NCBI GenBank assembly: GCA_946406645.1
Contig: CAMJLD010000001.1
Span: 1 to 64,000, forward strand
Origin: an uncultured Candidatus Saccharibacteria bacterium
Lineage (GTDB): Bacteria; Patescibacteriota; Saccharimonadia; Saccharimonadales; Saccharimonadaceae
DNA: 64,000 nucleotides
Reading direction: 5' to 3'
Part shown: piece by piece, positions 23,476-31,158 of the stretch
How positions within the stretch are numbered: position 1 is the first letter of the stretch
How the letters are laid out: every line of letters starts with the position of its first letter
Position numbers and translations under genes: made by a program
Notes under the pieces: generated by a model
What the model was told of the DNA's origin: nothing
Database searches by the model: none
The model's input: only the letters and a program-made list of their open reading frames with translations

Positions 23476-23877
23476 ATGTCAATTCAAACCACTGATCCAG
23501 TAGCTGACTTGATTACTCGCATCCGCAACGCTATCGCTGTCGGCAAGACCGAAGTTCGCGTCCCAACCAGCAAGCTCAAGTTTGCGATTGCAGAGAAGCT
23601 ACAGAAGACGAATTACATTGAGAAGGTTGAGCTCGAGAAGGCTGAACCACGCAACATCCTCCATGTTGTCATCAACAAGGAAGGCGAAAACGCTCGCATC
23701 AATGAAATCAGCAAGGTTTCTACTCCGGGCCGCCGCATTTACGCTGGCGTCTCTGAGATTCCAAAGGTCAAATCTGGTCGCGGTACTGTCCTCGTTTCGA
23801 CGAGCAAGGGTATCATGACTGGCCAGGAAGCCGTCAAGAACAAGCTTGGCGGAGAGATCCTCGTCAAAGTTTGGTAA
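23476..23877 (+). CDS. rpsH: 30S ribosomal protein S8
   Basis: DPVADLITRIRNAIAVGK. Confidence 0.97.
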   Translation: MSIQTTDPVADLITRIRNAIAVGKTEVRVPTSKLKFAIAEKLQKTNYIEKVELEKAEPRNILHVVINKEGENARINEISKVSTPGRRIYAGVSEIPKVKSGRGTVLVSTSKGIMTGQEAVKNKLGGEILVKVW

Positions 23878-23891
23878 TAAACCACAAAATT

Positions 23892-23915
23892 GCGCCTCAA
23901 TCGGGGCGCTTTTTT
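23892..23915 (+). terminator. Rho-independent terminator after rpsH
   Basis: GCGCC-tcaatcg-GGGCGC followed by TTTTTT. Confidence 0.8.
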
Positions 23916-24001
23916 GTTGCTTAAGCTTGCACCCGATAAGCCCAATATGAAACAATAAAATCACTATTCGAAGAATACGAGCTCTTTAGGAGGTGATTTT
24001 A

Positions 24002-25192
24002 ATGAAAGCACGTATTTGGGCTTCAACGAAGTTGGGCTATGTCTGTCCCAAGAAAGAAGCGATGCAAATCTCGGGCATCGCGTCTAATGTCTGCTATGCA
24101 GAAGGCGATTTCGATCAAATTCTAGAACAACCGCCAAAGAAAGCAGAGGAGCGCGTCGAAGGTAATATAGAAGCTGGTCATCACAGTGTCACTGGACACG
24201 TAGACTATGTCTTCGGCCTCTCCGGTATTCCGAAAATTATAGCAATGCTGCTAAATAATGAGAAGGAATACAACACTAGCGAGCGATCTGCCCGCTATGT
24301 CAGAATGCCGCTAGAAGGCATTGAGAAGGAACTCTATGAGAAATGGCGAGAGATATTCGCCAACGTCATCAGGGAGAAACTACCGAAACTGGCAGAAATC
24401 GAGAAAAAAGAGTTGGAGGAAATTCCTAACAGGAAGCAAACGACAGTGACAAAACTCGCGCAGGAAAATGCGAGGTACTTCATTTCGATTTTTACTCCAT
24501 CGACGAATATGGCCTACAAGACCTCTATTCGCCAGGCGGGCTATCTAATTCACTGGGCAAGAAATTTGGCCAAGAGGAAAGATACACCGTTCTATCAGAT
24601 GCTTAGTCCGTATCTAACCGAAGTCGCAGACAACATGTCGAAGTGCCTAGAGGGGTTCGAGCTAGATGACTGCAAGAACCGTGAATTCTCCCTATTTGCG
24701 ACCAGAGTACGCAAGGAGAGTTTTGACGAGACATACTGCGTTAACTATGAGGGAACATTCTCGCAACTCGCTCAGGCGCAAAGGCACCGCACAATCAGCT
24801 ATGAGATGATAGTCCCTGATCCGGAGACGGCAACGTTTTTTGTCCCGCCGATAATTGCGGATAACGACGAGCTAGTACAAGAATACCTTGATGACATGCA
24901 GAAGGTTAAGCATCTCTATCCTCAAGGTATGCTTATCCAGATCAACGAACGCGGTACTCCGGAGGCCTTTATCTTGAAGTGCTACGAGAGAAAGTGCGGC
25001 GCAGCGCAACTCGAAATCTGTCTCCAGACCGAGAAAACACTCATACGCTATGTTGCCGAAACAATCAACGAGTATATCCGAGAGATGCTCAGGCCATACA
25101 TTGGCAAAACTAAATGCCAATTGTGTAAGAATTTCAAGTGCAAGCGACCTTGTCCTTCAGGACCCGATCACGCTTTCGACCGAATCATCTGA
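24002..25192 (+). CDS. thyX: FAD-dependent thymidylate synthase (ThyX) with two tandem ThyX-like halves and Cys-rich C-terminus
   Basis: N-half HHSVTGHVDYVFGLSGIPKIIAMLLNNEKEYNTSERSARYV; C-half QLAQAQRHRTISYEM...FFVPPII...ERGTPEAFILKCYERKCGAAQLEI; tail CQLCKNFKCKRPC. Confidence 0.85.
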   Translation: MKARIWASTKLGYVCPKKEAMQISGIASNVCYAEGDFDQILEQPPKKAEERVEGNIEAGHHSVTGHVDYVFGLSGIPKIIAMLLNNEKEYNTSERSARYVRMPLEGIEKELYEKWREIFANVIREKLPKLAEIEKKELEEIPNRKQTTVTKLAQENARYFISIFTPSTNMAYKTSIRQAGYLIHWARNLAKRKDTPFYQMLSPYLTEVADNMSKCLEGFELDDCKNREFSLFATRVRKESFDETYCVNYEGTFSQLAQAQRHRTISYEMIVPDPETATFFVPPIIADNDELVQEYLDDMQKVKHLYPQGMLIQINERGTPEAFILKCYERKCGAAQLEICLQTEKTLIRYVAETINEYIREMLRPYIGKTKCQLCKNFKCKRPCPSGPDHAFDRII

Positions 25193-25196
25193 ATTA

Positions 25197-25217
25197 TCCC
25201 CCTCGAGAGAGGGGGAT
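25197..25217 (+). terminator. Terminator after thyX
   Basis: ATCCCCCTC-gaga-GAGGGGGAT followed by TTTT. Confidence 0.8.
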
Positions 25218-25235
25218 TTTTGTGGACAGAAGAAA

Positions 25236-25259
25236 GCCCCCTTTGCTAATCAAGGGGGC
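25236..25259. terminator. Second hairpin between convergent thyX genes
   Basis: GCCCCCTT-tgctaatc-AAGGGGGC. Confidence 0.55.
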
Positions 25260-25292
25260 CTTCGGGAGGAGGGAAACTAATGAAATTAGTTA

Positions 25293-26171
25293 TTACGTGG
25301 CACAATTGGGGCAATAGATACCTAAAGCATCCTCGCATATATTAGTAATCTCAATTCTAGTAGCAGGATGATTTTGGGCGTCAGAACTCTTCTCGAGCAA
25401 AGCTTCGATAGTCCCAGATTCCGCAATAGTAGCATAAAGAGCACTCGGCCATAAGCCTTCTTCGACTTCTTTGGCCAAATCCGAAAGATACTCAAAGGAA
25501 AGCATCGTGTTACTCTCAAGGATATTGGGCTGATAGAACGAGAGGTCGCCAGGATTAGACACACCAGTTACCCGATAGCAAATTCCGGAGGAACCCATCT
25601 CGACAGAGAGAATTGCCGAATTGAATGACAAATCATATCCGAAAGAATACAAGATACTAGGATCCGATGCATCAAAATCTGGCTTTTCAAAAAGAGACAA
25701 CTTAACGCTATGGTCGATTGACCTTTCGCCTAGAATATCTCCAAAGTATCCTTTCAGCCAAGCGGCAAATTCCCGGAATAACCTACTAAGAAGCAGCTCA
25801 AACTCGGATTTTCCACAACTCGACGCGTAATTGTTGATCTTATTCCATATATCAACAATTTCGTCGCTGCTAGCTATATACGTACAGTCAAATGCTGGTG
25901 AAAAAATCGAGATAAAATACATCGCATAGTATTCGCTCGATTCATCGTCTCCATATTTTTCAAGCTCCCCATCAAACTTGCCATTCCACTTATTATAGAG
26001 TTCCCTTTCAAGAGGGCTCAATGATTGTCTATTCACGCGTAAAGAGTCTATCTCGTAAGAATGAGAAAGACCTTCGCTGTTCAAGACCATCAAGAGTATC
26101 ATCGGCGCACCTTCTATCCTGAGCTGATGATTACACGGTCCTCCCTTAGATGCAGTTACTTTGAGTTTCAT
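25293..26171 (-). CDS. Divergent ThyX-like paralogue lacking the RHR motif and the HHS motif
   Basis: VLNSEGLSHSYEIDSLRVNRQSLSPLERELYNKWNGKF vs LLNNEKEYNTSERSARYVRMPLEGIEKELYEKWREIF; YFISIFSPAFDCTY vs YFISIFTPSTNMAY; EYLSDLAKEVEEGLWPSALYATIAESGTIEALL vs EYLDDMQKVKHLYPQGMLIQINERGTPEAFIL; start ATG 26171 after AAGGAGGTGAA. Confidence 0.75.
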   Translation of the reverse strand: MKLKVTASKGGPCNHQLRIEGAPMILLMVLNSEGLSHSYEIDSLRVNRQSLSPLERELYNKWNGKFDGELEKYGDDESSEYYAMYFISIFSPAFDCTYIASSDEIVDIWNKINNYASSCGKSEFELLLSRLFREFAAWLKGYFGDILGERSIDHSVKLSLFEKPDFDASDPSILYSFGYDLSFNSAILSVEMGSSGICYRVTGVSNPGDLSFYQPNILESNTMLSFEYLSDLAKEVEEGLWPSALYATIAESGTIEALLEKSSDAQNHPATRIEITNICEDALGIYCPNCAT

Positions 26172-26247
26172 AAAAAATTCACCTCCTTGTAAAGTACTTA
26201 CACCTGTACTGTATCTAGTATAACAGACGAGCCGGAGCGCCCCCACA

Positions 26248-26276
26248 TTGACTTTTCCGCTAATCTGTGCTATAAT
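26248..26276 (+). promoter_or_regulatory. Near-consensus promoter upstream of rplF
   Basis: TTGACT-17 nt-TATAAT; followed by hairpin CTCC-tttta-GGAG and TTTTT at 26283-26307. Confidence 0.7.
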
Positions 26277-26370
26277 GAAAATATACGCTCCTTTTAGGAG
26301 TATTTTTCTTGCAAAAAAGCTACAGATGTGATAAAATAGCCAAGATATTATTAACAAGAAGGGACTTATA

Positions 26371-26907
26371 GTGAGTCGTATCGGAAAACTACCTGTAGAG
26401 GTTCCTGCAGGCGTGACAATTACGGTCAGCGACAAGGAAATTACCGTCGCTGGACCTAAGGGCACGCTTACGGTTCCTGTCCAGGCCAATACCCAGACTA
26501 AGGTCGAGGGTAATCAAATCATCATTACTCGCTCTGATGACGAGCCAAAGTCAAAAGCTTGGCATGGTCTTCAGCGTGCGTTGCTCAACAACGCCGTTCA
26601 GGGCGTTACCAAAGGTTTCGAGAAGAAACTCGAGATCAATGGTGTCGGTTTCCGCCTAAGTGGTGGTCCAAAAGAAATCGAAATGGCTCTTGGCTTTAGC
26701 CATCCAGTCAAGTACAAAGCTCCAGAAGGTATCGAGCTTAAGACTGACAAGATGACTATTACCGTCTCTGGCATCGACAAGCAGAAGGTCGGCCAGGTCG
26801 CAGCTGAGATCCGCGCACTTAAGAAGCCTGAACCATACAAGGGCAAGGGTATTAAGTACGTTGACGAATATATTATCCGTAAAGCCGGTAAGGCAGGGAA
26901 GAAGTAA
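26371..26907 (+). CDS. rplF: 50S ribosomal protein L6
   Basis: SRIGKLPVEVPAGVTITVSDKEITVAGPKGTL; GTG start. Confidence 0.98.
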   Translation: MSRIGKLPVEVPAGVTITVSDKEITVAGPKGTLTVPVQANTQTKVEGNQIIITRSDDEPKSKAWHGLQRALLNNAVQGVTKGFEKKLEINGVGFRLSGGPKEIEMALGFSHPVKYKAPEGIELKTDKMTITVSGIDKQKVGQVAAEIRALKKPEPYKGKGIKYVDEYIIRKAGKAGKK

Positions 26908-28416: not shown

Positions 28417-31158
28417 CTATTTGCCATCGTCGTAATCATCCCAGAAATGCCTGAGAAGATTATCAATCCAGATATATGAGTGTTTCTCGGAGTCGGGAAC
28501 AGAGGCGTATTCGAATGAATCGGAAAACTCGATATTGTTTGTACCGACACCCATCTCATCCAAGTAGAAGTAGGAGCACTGAGACGACGAGCAATCGTCT
28601 TTAATTCGCTGCTGCTCCTCAAGCATAAGCTGGATATGCTGATTAAGAATCGGAGGAACTTTTACTTTCTCCGGATCGGGGTAATAGACCACCAGGTTCT
28701 GATCAAAGTTCCGGAGCGCATAATCTTTGTACCAGGAACTACCCCTGATGAGATTTCGAGAATATTCTAAAATCTTTGACATATCCCGGATGTGGTTACC
28801 CTCAAATCGATAGATATTATCGGGCAAATACTGCAAGTCTGGGAGCTTAGTTAGTTCATTGTAGGACAAATCTAGCTCAACGATATTGGAGAAAAACTTT
28901 AGCTCGGAAGCGTCCGCTATGCCGCGATTCGACAAATCGAGGCGCAAATCCTTCTCGACGTCCACTGTTATGGAACGATTATCTTCGTCGCTTGAGAACG
29001 AGAAATTATCCGGATACTGGGAGAAATAGCCCACAAGAGCGTCGAAGAGCGCAGGGTCGCTTACGGTAAACGTCTTTATATTTTTTTCGCGAACCGGTTT
29101 CTTTTCGCCATCAATTATGAACGGATTTAGCGCGGAACCGTCGCCTATGACCACCTTGTTTGAATTGGCGAGCGTGATCACGGGCAGCAGAGGCAACCCA
29201 CGACCAGCTCCGACGCCATTCCCGGCAGTCGTAGATTCCGCACTTGAATATTTCGTTAAATCGAAAATACGATAAGTCATGTTCATGGCGTCCGTATCGG
29301 TGGACTTCATTGTAGCGGGGCTCATCGTGATGGACGATAAATCTCCAGAAACCCAAGACACGGGATTAACTGTCCCGACCAGTAAAGAATCCGACAAATT
29401 CATTAACGCAACGGGGTATTTAAGCTTGCCGTTTCCGCGATACGCGCTGACGGTGTACTTATCGGTTTCTAGGCAACTAAAAGATGGCTCCATCTGGTTT
29501 AGGTTGTAGGTTAATTCGGTCGAGCCGGAAAAAGATAAGGTCGGGTGCGAGACCGCTCCGCCACAATAGACGTCATCAGCAAGCCTATCTGTATACTCGG
29601 ACAGATTGCGCTCGTACCAATCCTCAATCGCTACTTTCTGAGGAGAATCGTTTTCGCCACTACCAGTAATTCTTGGCTGTCCAGTGATCTTCTTGAATGG
29701 CCTAGCATTGCCGCCATAGAGATTGTAATAATAATACTCCATCGAATTGCCGCAATCCACGCGCCCATCTGGGAGTTTTACGGCGCCTAAGCTTGCTAGA
29801 CAAATATAGTTATCGCTCAATTGTCCCACTAATCTCCGAACGACATCGGAAGGGTTATCGCCGTCCTCTGCATTGGGCGCCGTATAGGTAATATAAGGAT
29901 TCTTGCTGCAGGTTTTAGGAGTGACATTATAGCTGGTAGAGCACCAAAGCTTTCCTTTAGGAAACTCTGGCGCATCATGGCTGTCTATTAGATAATAGTG
30001 GCCATCCTCGTAATCGAAAGACTTGGAATAATACTGATGTCCGGTATCTATATTGCAGGTGATCGAGCTATTGCCAATCTGCATCCCTTCATAGTCTTGG
30101 GACATAAGGCGTTTATAACAATCAGATTCCTTGTAATCACGCAACATAGCCGGTGCGTTCATATATGGTTTATACGGATTCAGGGAAGCACGGTCGTCTT
30201 TCTCGACCGTCACATCGGAAAGAAAATCGTCGTCGTATGTATAAAAACCATAAGAATAAGCGGTATCGGCGGCATCCAGTCTCGGAATAGACGAGTCGCG
30301 ATCGGTATTATAGTAAGTCCCATCTGTTCTCGCCAGACCGTAATCGGATGTATTGAATGGTTCACAAGTGCCATAGTCCGTTACTTCACCATAATAAACC
30401 ATGCGAACGCCGCCGGACTCGGTAGTACGCGTGATTCGCCAGCACTTATCAGCAAACACGACATGGTTTTTGTCGGAACTGCCGCCGTCATTACTATAAT
30501 GAAAAACCGTAGGATAGGTATCACTTTCGGTTCCGGCGAGTGTATAGTAGCCACTTTCGGACCTATTCGCCAAAGGGCTATCGGGGGTGCCACTAACGCG
30601 AGCCGCCGCAGCGGTTACTGTTTCATAAATATTTTTACTATCAGGGCCAGCGACATACCTATCACTCGCGGCATTCGTCGACGAAAAGATGAGCGATGAA
30701 AACACGCCAACAAGGGAAAAGACTAATACTACTGGAAGCAACCTCTTGTAACTGATTCGGTTCTTCCGGCAATAATATAGCAATACGGCAATAGCCAAGC
30801 TCAATATTGATATAATCGCAACATAAGTAGCAATATCATCTAGAGTACGAGCATTTTCGGGGATCGCAGCGGACTCAGAATCGTTATCTTTATTAGAGTC
30901 ATGGTCCGTCGCGGGGTTAGGTTGATCTTCGCCGCTCGGGTCAACCGGGTCATCAGTAGTGGAGCTATTTATTTCATCATCATACGGTTGCGCATTTGGG
31001 TCGTAAATAAACTCAGTATTCAAAACCGTCCAATCTGGAGACGTAGCGTCTCTTAGGACGGGGACATTTTCGACAAAATACGAGGGGTCATAACCATCTG
31101 GATACTCAACCCCGTTAATTGGCGATATAGCTCCAACCAATAATAGAAGATTAAACAT
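28417..31158 (-). CDS. Large surface protein with two TM helices, FADKCWRITRTTESGGVRMVYYG region and C-terminal leucine-rich repeats
   Basis: TM pair IATYVAIISILSLAIAVLLYYCRKNRISYKRLLPVVLVFSLVGVFSSLIF; LRR LRLDLSNRGIADASELKFFSNIVELDLSYNELTKLPDL. Confidence 0.8.
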   Translation of the reverse strand: MFNLLLLVGAISPINGVEYPDGYDPSYFVENVPVLRDATSPDWTVLNTEFIYDPNAQPYDDEINSSTTDDPVDPSGEDQPNPATDHDSNKDNDSESAAIPENARTLDDIATYVAIISILSLAIAVLLYYCRKNRISYKRLLPVVLVFSLVGVFSSLIFSSTNAASDRYVAGPDSKNIYETVTAAAARVSGTPDSPLANRSESGYYTLAGTESDTYPTVFHYSNDGGSSDKNHVVFADKCWRITRTTESGGVRMVYYGEVTDYGTCEPFNTSDYGLARTDGTYYNTDRDSSIPRLDAADTAYSYGFYTYDDDFLSDVTVEKDDRASLNPYKPYMNAPAMLRDYKESDCYKRLMSQDYEGMQIGNSSITCNIDTGHQYYSKSFDYEDGHYYLIDSHDAPEFPKGKLWCSTSYNVTPKTCSKNPYITYTAPNAEDGDNPSDVVRRLVGQLSDNYICLASLGAVKLPDGRVDCGNSMEYYYYNLYGGNARPFKKITGQPRITGSGENDSPQKVAIEDWYERNLSEYTDRLADDVYCGGAVSHPTLSFSGSTELTYNLNQMEPSFSCLETDKYTVSAYRGNGKLKYPVALMNLSDSLLVGTVNPVSWVSGDLSSITMSPATMKSTDTDAMNMTYRIFDLTKYSSAESTTAGNGVGAGRGLPLLPVITLANSNKVVIGDGSALNPFIIDGEKKPVREKNIKTFTVSDPALFDALVGYFSQYPDNFSFSSDEDNRSITVDVEKDLRLDLSNRGIADASELKFFSNIVELDLSYNELTKLPDLQYLPDNIYRFEGNHIRDMSKILEYSRNLIRGSSWYKDYALRNFDQNLVVYYPDPEKVKVPPILNQHIQLMLEEQQRIKDDCSSSQCSYFYLDEMGVGTNNIEFSDSFEYASVPDSEKHSYIWIDNLLRHFWDDYDDGK

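Follow-up and report, generated by a model that had tools for sequence, protein, structure and literature searches.

In the ThyX of Mycobacterium tuberculosis, each active site is built by three subunits and FAD is bound by RHR 95-97 together with Ser71 of a neighbouring subunit (PMC6514825). A second copy of the gene need not keep this role, as in Streptomyces the ThyX paralogue PolB is a UMP/dUMP methylase (4p5a; PMC5003785). In trypanosomatids, catalytically dead paralogues of AdoMetDC (the prozyme) and DHS are retained beside a live enzyme, on which they act (PMC6221367, PMC3663545). A literature search, with subscription papers mostly outside its scope, found no ThyX-family pseudoenzyme. 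The gene described here resembles PolB in being a second, repurposed ThyX copy and the trypanosomatid proteins in being a dead paralogue beside a live enzyme; however, PolB remains an enzyme, with methylase activity, and the present gene persists without ThyX in two of its three carriers. Saccharibacteria have very small genomes and are host-dependent, so one would not expect them to retain a copy of an essential enzyme that no longer catalyses.

The gene (P0001) lies in the window, a stretch of 64,000 nucleotides from a genome (G000; 0.67 Mb, 81% complete) whose named relatives are Candidatus Saccharibacteria MAGs, many of them from the guts of ruminants or other animals. It is convergent with a thyX gene (P0002) across a gap of 100 bp, and both sit between rpsH and rplF within the spc ribosomal-protein operon (Table 1). 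The reading frame is intact, as the preliminary description had stated; orthologues in two other species (G023 and G065) and codon bias rule out a chance ORF, and a phage or virus origin was rejected on zero matches in phages or viral contigs. The ribosomal cluster also holds a gene for a 913-aa protein with a hydrophobic segment (28417-31158, minus strand); G023 and G065 have counterparts at this position that are only 57% identical to each other.

Table 1. Features of the P0001-thyX region, in coordinates of the window.
Feature	Position	Strand	Remarks
Long two-domain ThyX (P0002), 396 aa	24002..25192	+	first half carries HHS, second half RHR
Terminator-like stem after thyX	25196..25217	+	promoter/terminator scan
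GC-rich stem, then T-rich tract, 3' of P0001	25236..25259	-	resembles a terminator on inspection; absent from the scan output
P0001 ORF, 292 aa	25293..26171	-	ATG 26171, stop 25293; putative short, catalytically dead ThyX paralogue
Leader helix, 3' arm	26148..26162	-	within codons 4-8; Shine-Dalgarno and AUG in loop
Shine-Dalgarno AAGGAGGTG	26180..26188	-	strong; AAGGAGGTG in G023, GAGGAGGTG in G065
Leader helix, 5' arm	26191..26205	-	pairs with codons 4-8
Extended -10 TGTTATACT	26217..26225	-	shared by three species; lacks a good -35; received no score in the scan
Divergent promoter 5' of rplF, TTGACT-17-TATAAT	26248..26276	+	scan

Taken by itself, P0001 matched none of the Pfam families, gave no NCBIfam match to ThyX and no match of note in PHROGs, and a scan of the genome contigs with it as the only query found nothing; its homology to ThyX therefore rests on its neighbour P0002 and on the family profile. 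P0002 scores 48.8 bits against PF02511 (cut-off 24.8), with P0001 below the curated cut-off. BLASTP aligned the two over 278 columns at 26% identity (E=9e-16), and long ThyX proteins were retrieved at E-values down to 4e-21 by a profile built from P0001 and one orthologue. The alignment with ThyX reported earlier thus holds for P0002 but not for the Pfam and NCBIfam models. Grouping P0001 with P0002 in one clade gave a p-AU of 0.30. P0001 is a direct homologue of the long two-domain ThyX, with the same domain order and about 25-28% identity, although it is some 100 aa shorter, having neither the N-terminal helices nor the Cys tail and missing a stretch in its interior; it would descend from the long form of gut Saccharibacteria. 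Compared with ThyX at large (PF02511, TIGR02170), it shares ancestry through P0002 and a predicted fold whose best matches are ThyX chains, but not the motifs described below.

The N-terminal stretch of about 55 residues that bears HHS is deleted in P0001, together with the HxS helix and its conserved histidine (H53 of T. maritima), and none of the three orthologues has RHR (R261-H262-R263 of P0002; E/E/D, S/S/A, S/S/P instead); both losses had been correctly recognised in the preliminary description. P0001 also lacks the NxR/ER residues and the Cys tail, and the orthologues have lost R177 and E329-R330, except that one member retains an R of E329-R330. The YCPNC tail noted earlier is present in P0001, but its reading as a shrunken Cys cluster was discarded because the orthologues end without it (...KLCHLSSVV and ...AKMNIAI). 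As judged from its residues, P0001 has lost the FAD site, the folate site and most of the dUMP site, and would not make dTMP by ThyX chemistry. Twenty-seven of the 77 columns invariant among long ThyX proteins are retained in all three orthologues, mostly in the core (YxKW, A-YFIS-F-P, LF, Y, P and D, plus S96/R98 of SxRY). The SxRY loop keeps its S and R in all three, with Y changed to V, and S43 and R45 of P0001 align with the Ser and Arg of SxRY in M. tuberculosis ThyX. A further 41 positions are invariant among the orthologues yet rare in ThyX, a sign of new constraint.

An AlphaFold (AF2) model of P0001 built from a 21-row alignment reached a pLDDT of 87.4 and a pTM of 0.86. The best 50 PDB matches returned by Foldseek were all ThyX-family chains, with probability up to 0.98; these matches were weak (E >= 0.058, best 0.058; TM 0.21-0.41), probably because one chain spans two shortened domains. 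The beta-alpha core of the two ThyX domains would be preserved in P0001.

The long ThyX is itself unusual, Thy1 being matched twice within the 396 aa of P0002. Throughout this family HHS and SxRY are found in the first half, where the RHR position reads NNE, and the second half carries RHR, NxR and AQxEI, from which we infer a fused, asymmetric form with complementary half-sites. Weak Thy1 matches were found in the second domain of 10 of 16 members, in addition to its RHR/NxR motifs; since a profile-profile comparison of the halves detected no internal duplication, the fused form is read from the motifs. Ten genomes of the genus encode ThyX without ThyA, which suggests that the long form is active. 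It occurs in Saccharibacteria and in some gut Bacilli and Clostridia (Clostridiaceae) MAGs (L077, L081, L082). Eroded full-length copies were observed in G025 (L026; RHR region changed), G009 (L023; NNE changed) and G297 (L036; RHR to RYR, HHS lost), possibly further steps towards dead copies. Three canonical high-scoring ThyX matches take the place of the long form in one genome of the genus, G021 (C6, C10).

The rpsH-rplF interval (23877-26371 in the window; loci L043-L072) accepts varying insertions across the genus, and thymidylate genes (thyX, thyA, folA) are frequent among them. A long thyX lies on the same contig near rplF in about 11 genomes, and the interval carries thyA in G061, G028, G020, G004 and G068, DHFR in G061, and assorted other genes elsewhere.

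A search of 45 genomes of the window's genus recovered the P0001 gene in only three, namely G000, G023 (CAMZEA010000021.1) and G065 (JAFWSJ010000014.1), the latter two at the same rpsH-rplF locus and on the same strand. The orthologues form one fully supported clade on a long stem and share 43-51% of their amino acids pairwise, the N-terminal half being better conserved than the C-terminal half (only 32-44% identical between species). Differences at the three codon positions (about 0.44/0.32/0.62) show a strong third-position bias. Codon-based maximum likelihood gave omega values of 0.017-0.039, which are indicative only because dS is saturated, and rejected omega=1 (2dlnL 94-116); the G023-G065 divergence was likewise under purifying selection. 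Neutral simulation at 0.2 substitutions per site predicted about five stops per lineage, with a probability of about 0.003-0.004 of no stop. The frame is intact in G000 and G023, and that of G065 contains one in-frame TAA at codon 104. Changes specific to G065 are third-position-rich both before and after this codon, which points to a stop of recent date or to a mistake in the assembly; unless it is such a mistake, the gene is dispensable in G065.

An enzyme homologue whose catalytic residues are lost in all orthologues, and which is under purifying selection, has both properties of a pseudoenzyme. A pseudogene would be marked by a broken frame or a lack of codon constraint; here the G065 codon is the one break. 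Degradation in close relatives, which the preliminary description had set against its own proposal, was accordingly seen in one relative and not in the other, and its proposal of a retained non-catalytic paralogue is upheld by the orthologues, the selection, the kept fold and the lost catalytic residues. The gene diverges faster than neighbouring genes. Other non-ribosomal genes on the contig also show high or saturated dS (57-78% amino acid identity), so this divergence calls for nothing special beyond weaker constraint. Cassette exchange was considered and is unneeded, the non-ribosomal neighbours being similar and the low ribosomal dS fitting codon bias.

The promoter and Shine-Dalgarno previously attributed to the gene are conserved: the three species share the extended -10 (TGTTATAcT or TGTTATAaT), the leader and the Shine-Dalgarno. 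The leader and first codons have 90% mean column identity. A 13-bp helix is formed by 13/13 pairs in every orthologue (39/39 cells), compared with 33-49% when slid by 1-3 columns; with zero two-sided pair changes and three sequences only, it is a lead rather than proof, and translational control of P0001 by looping of the Shine-Dalgarno and AUG is at most suggested. Among 54 start sites, a set that includes P0001 itself, leaders of this type fall within the top few per cent. The helix was rejected as a general feature of thyX genes, its occurrence across long ThyX genes being inconsistent, as was AGTAC..GTACTTT as a regulon operator (one other, unrelated site each in G023 and G065, none in G000). 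In G023 and G065 a promoter related to that upstream of rplF precedes a gene for a 445-aa protein that is oriented divergently to the P0001 orthologue (L004:2191-3528, L096:6587-7945; 78% identical). This protein has no assigned family, is absent from the window genome and has weak relatives in G018, G063 and G021.

PF02511 was not found in G023 or G065, both carriers of P0001, and as G023 is 89% complete a thyX may have been missed there. All three carriers encode ThyA (282 aa, about 97% identical among them). Across the genus, 5 genomes have both synthases, 10 ThyX only, 21 ThyA only and 9 neither, so the two tend toward mutual exclusion (Fisher p=0.027). Barring an assembly gap, the role of P0001 in the G023 and G065 lineages cannot need ThyX. 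For this orthologue group the earlier suggestion of a regulator or partner of ThyX consequently fails, the gene being under purifying selection without PF02511; of the expected conserved pair, the short gene is kept in both species and ThyX in neither.

A partner role deserves consideration nonetheless, in which P0001 would be a non-catalytic subunit or regulator in a mixed oligomer with P0002, like the trypanosomatid prozymes. P0001 adjoins thyX in the window, and activation of a partner by a dead paralogue has precedents (PMC3663545, PMC6221367). G315 (C6; L110:1049-4322), which belongs to a different genus of the family, has two short ThyX-like genes (328 and 319 aa) directly behind an intact long thyX, the trio lying between rplJ and rplA with gaps of 15-16 bp, likely as one operon. 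Both short genes lack the N-terminal stretch, RHR and the Cys tail, as P0001 does, and a partner role within that operon is possible. However, these paralogues are only about 19% identical to P0001 and resemble the thyX of their own operon more closely (the first at about 32%). No short paralogue was seen in 13 other long-ThyX genomes of the window's genus, and a prozyme-like protein would always accompany its live enzyme, whereas P0001 persists under purifying selection in G023 and G065. A partner role for P0001 itself thus seems unlikely. Trees placed all five short paralogues together (support 84/92), a grouping made unsafe by long branches, and searches of 394 genomes of the family, 393 of the order and 174 of the genus of G315 brought up no more short copies.

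The gene might instead be the remnant, in slow decay, of a ThyX whose place ThyA has taken. The presence of ThyA in every carrier, the mutual exclusion of the two synthases, the nonsense codon in G065 and the rapid divergence would all fit such a history, but the persistence of an open frame in G000 and G023 while third positions have become saturated, the strong rejection of omega=1, the conserved promoter, leader and Shine-Dalgarno and a confidently predicted fold make it quite improbable that P0001 is without current function. Some enzymatic or nucleotide-handling activity other than dTMP synthesis, kept or gained, would accord with S43, R45 and the 41 newly invariant positions, and PolB offers an analogous case of neofunctionalisation (PMC5003785, PMC5954106), yet with RHR, the NxR pair and the conserved ER/AQxEI residues eroded and no coherent new catalytic set seen in the sequence, it is very unlikely.

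The reading we favour, with a probability of roughly 60%, is that P0001 is a kept ThyX-derived pseudoenzyme, now independent of ThyX, that acts by binding rather than catalysis. Selection has maintained it as a folded protein with its own extended -10 promoter, and it probably has a non-enzymatic job. Since two of the three carriers have ThyA instead of ThyX, that job in the window's genus would be independent of ThyX. The most likely ligand would be a protein, a nucleotide or RNA, perhaps with a tie to thymidylate supply.

More tentatively, short paralogues of the fused ThyX without an active site might constitute a new, recurrent class of non-catalytic, thymidylate-synthase-like proteins in Saccharibacteria, one that arose more than once (in the window's genus and in G315). 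They would have begun as subunits or sensors of ThyX and, after takeover by ThyA, outlived it as independent binding proteins. The five short proteins are of interest either as an ancient family or as a case of repeated origin. The pair of P0001 and P0002 offers a direct test bed for subunit, sensor or RNA-binding roles, and P0001 would illustrate the fate of a thymidylate synthase gene once another family takes over.
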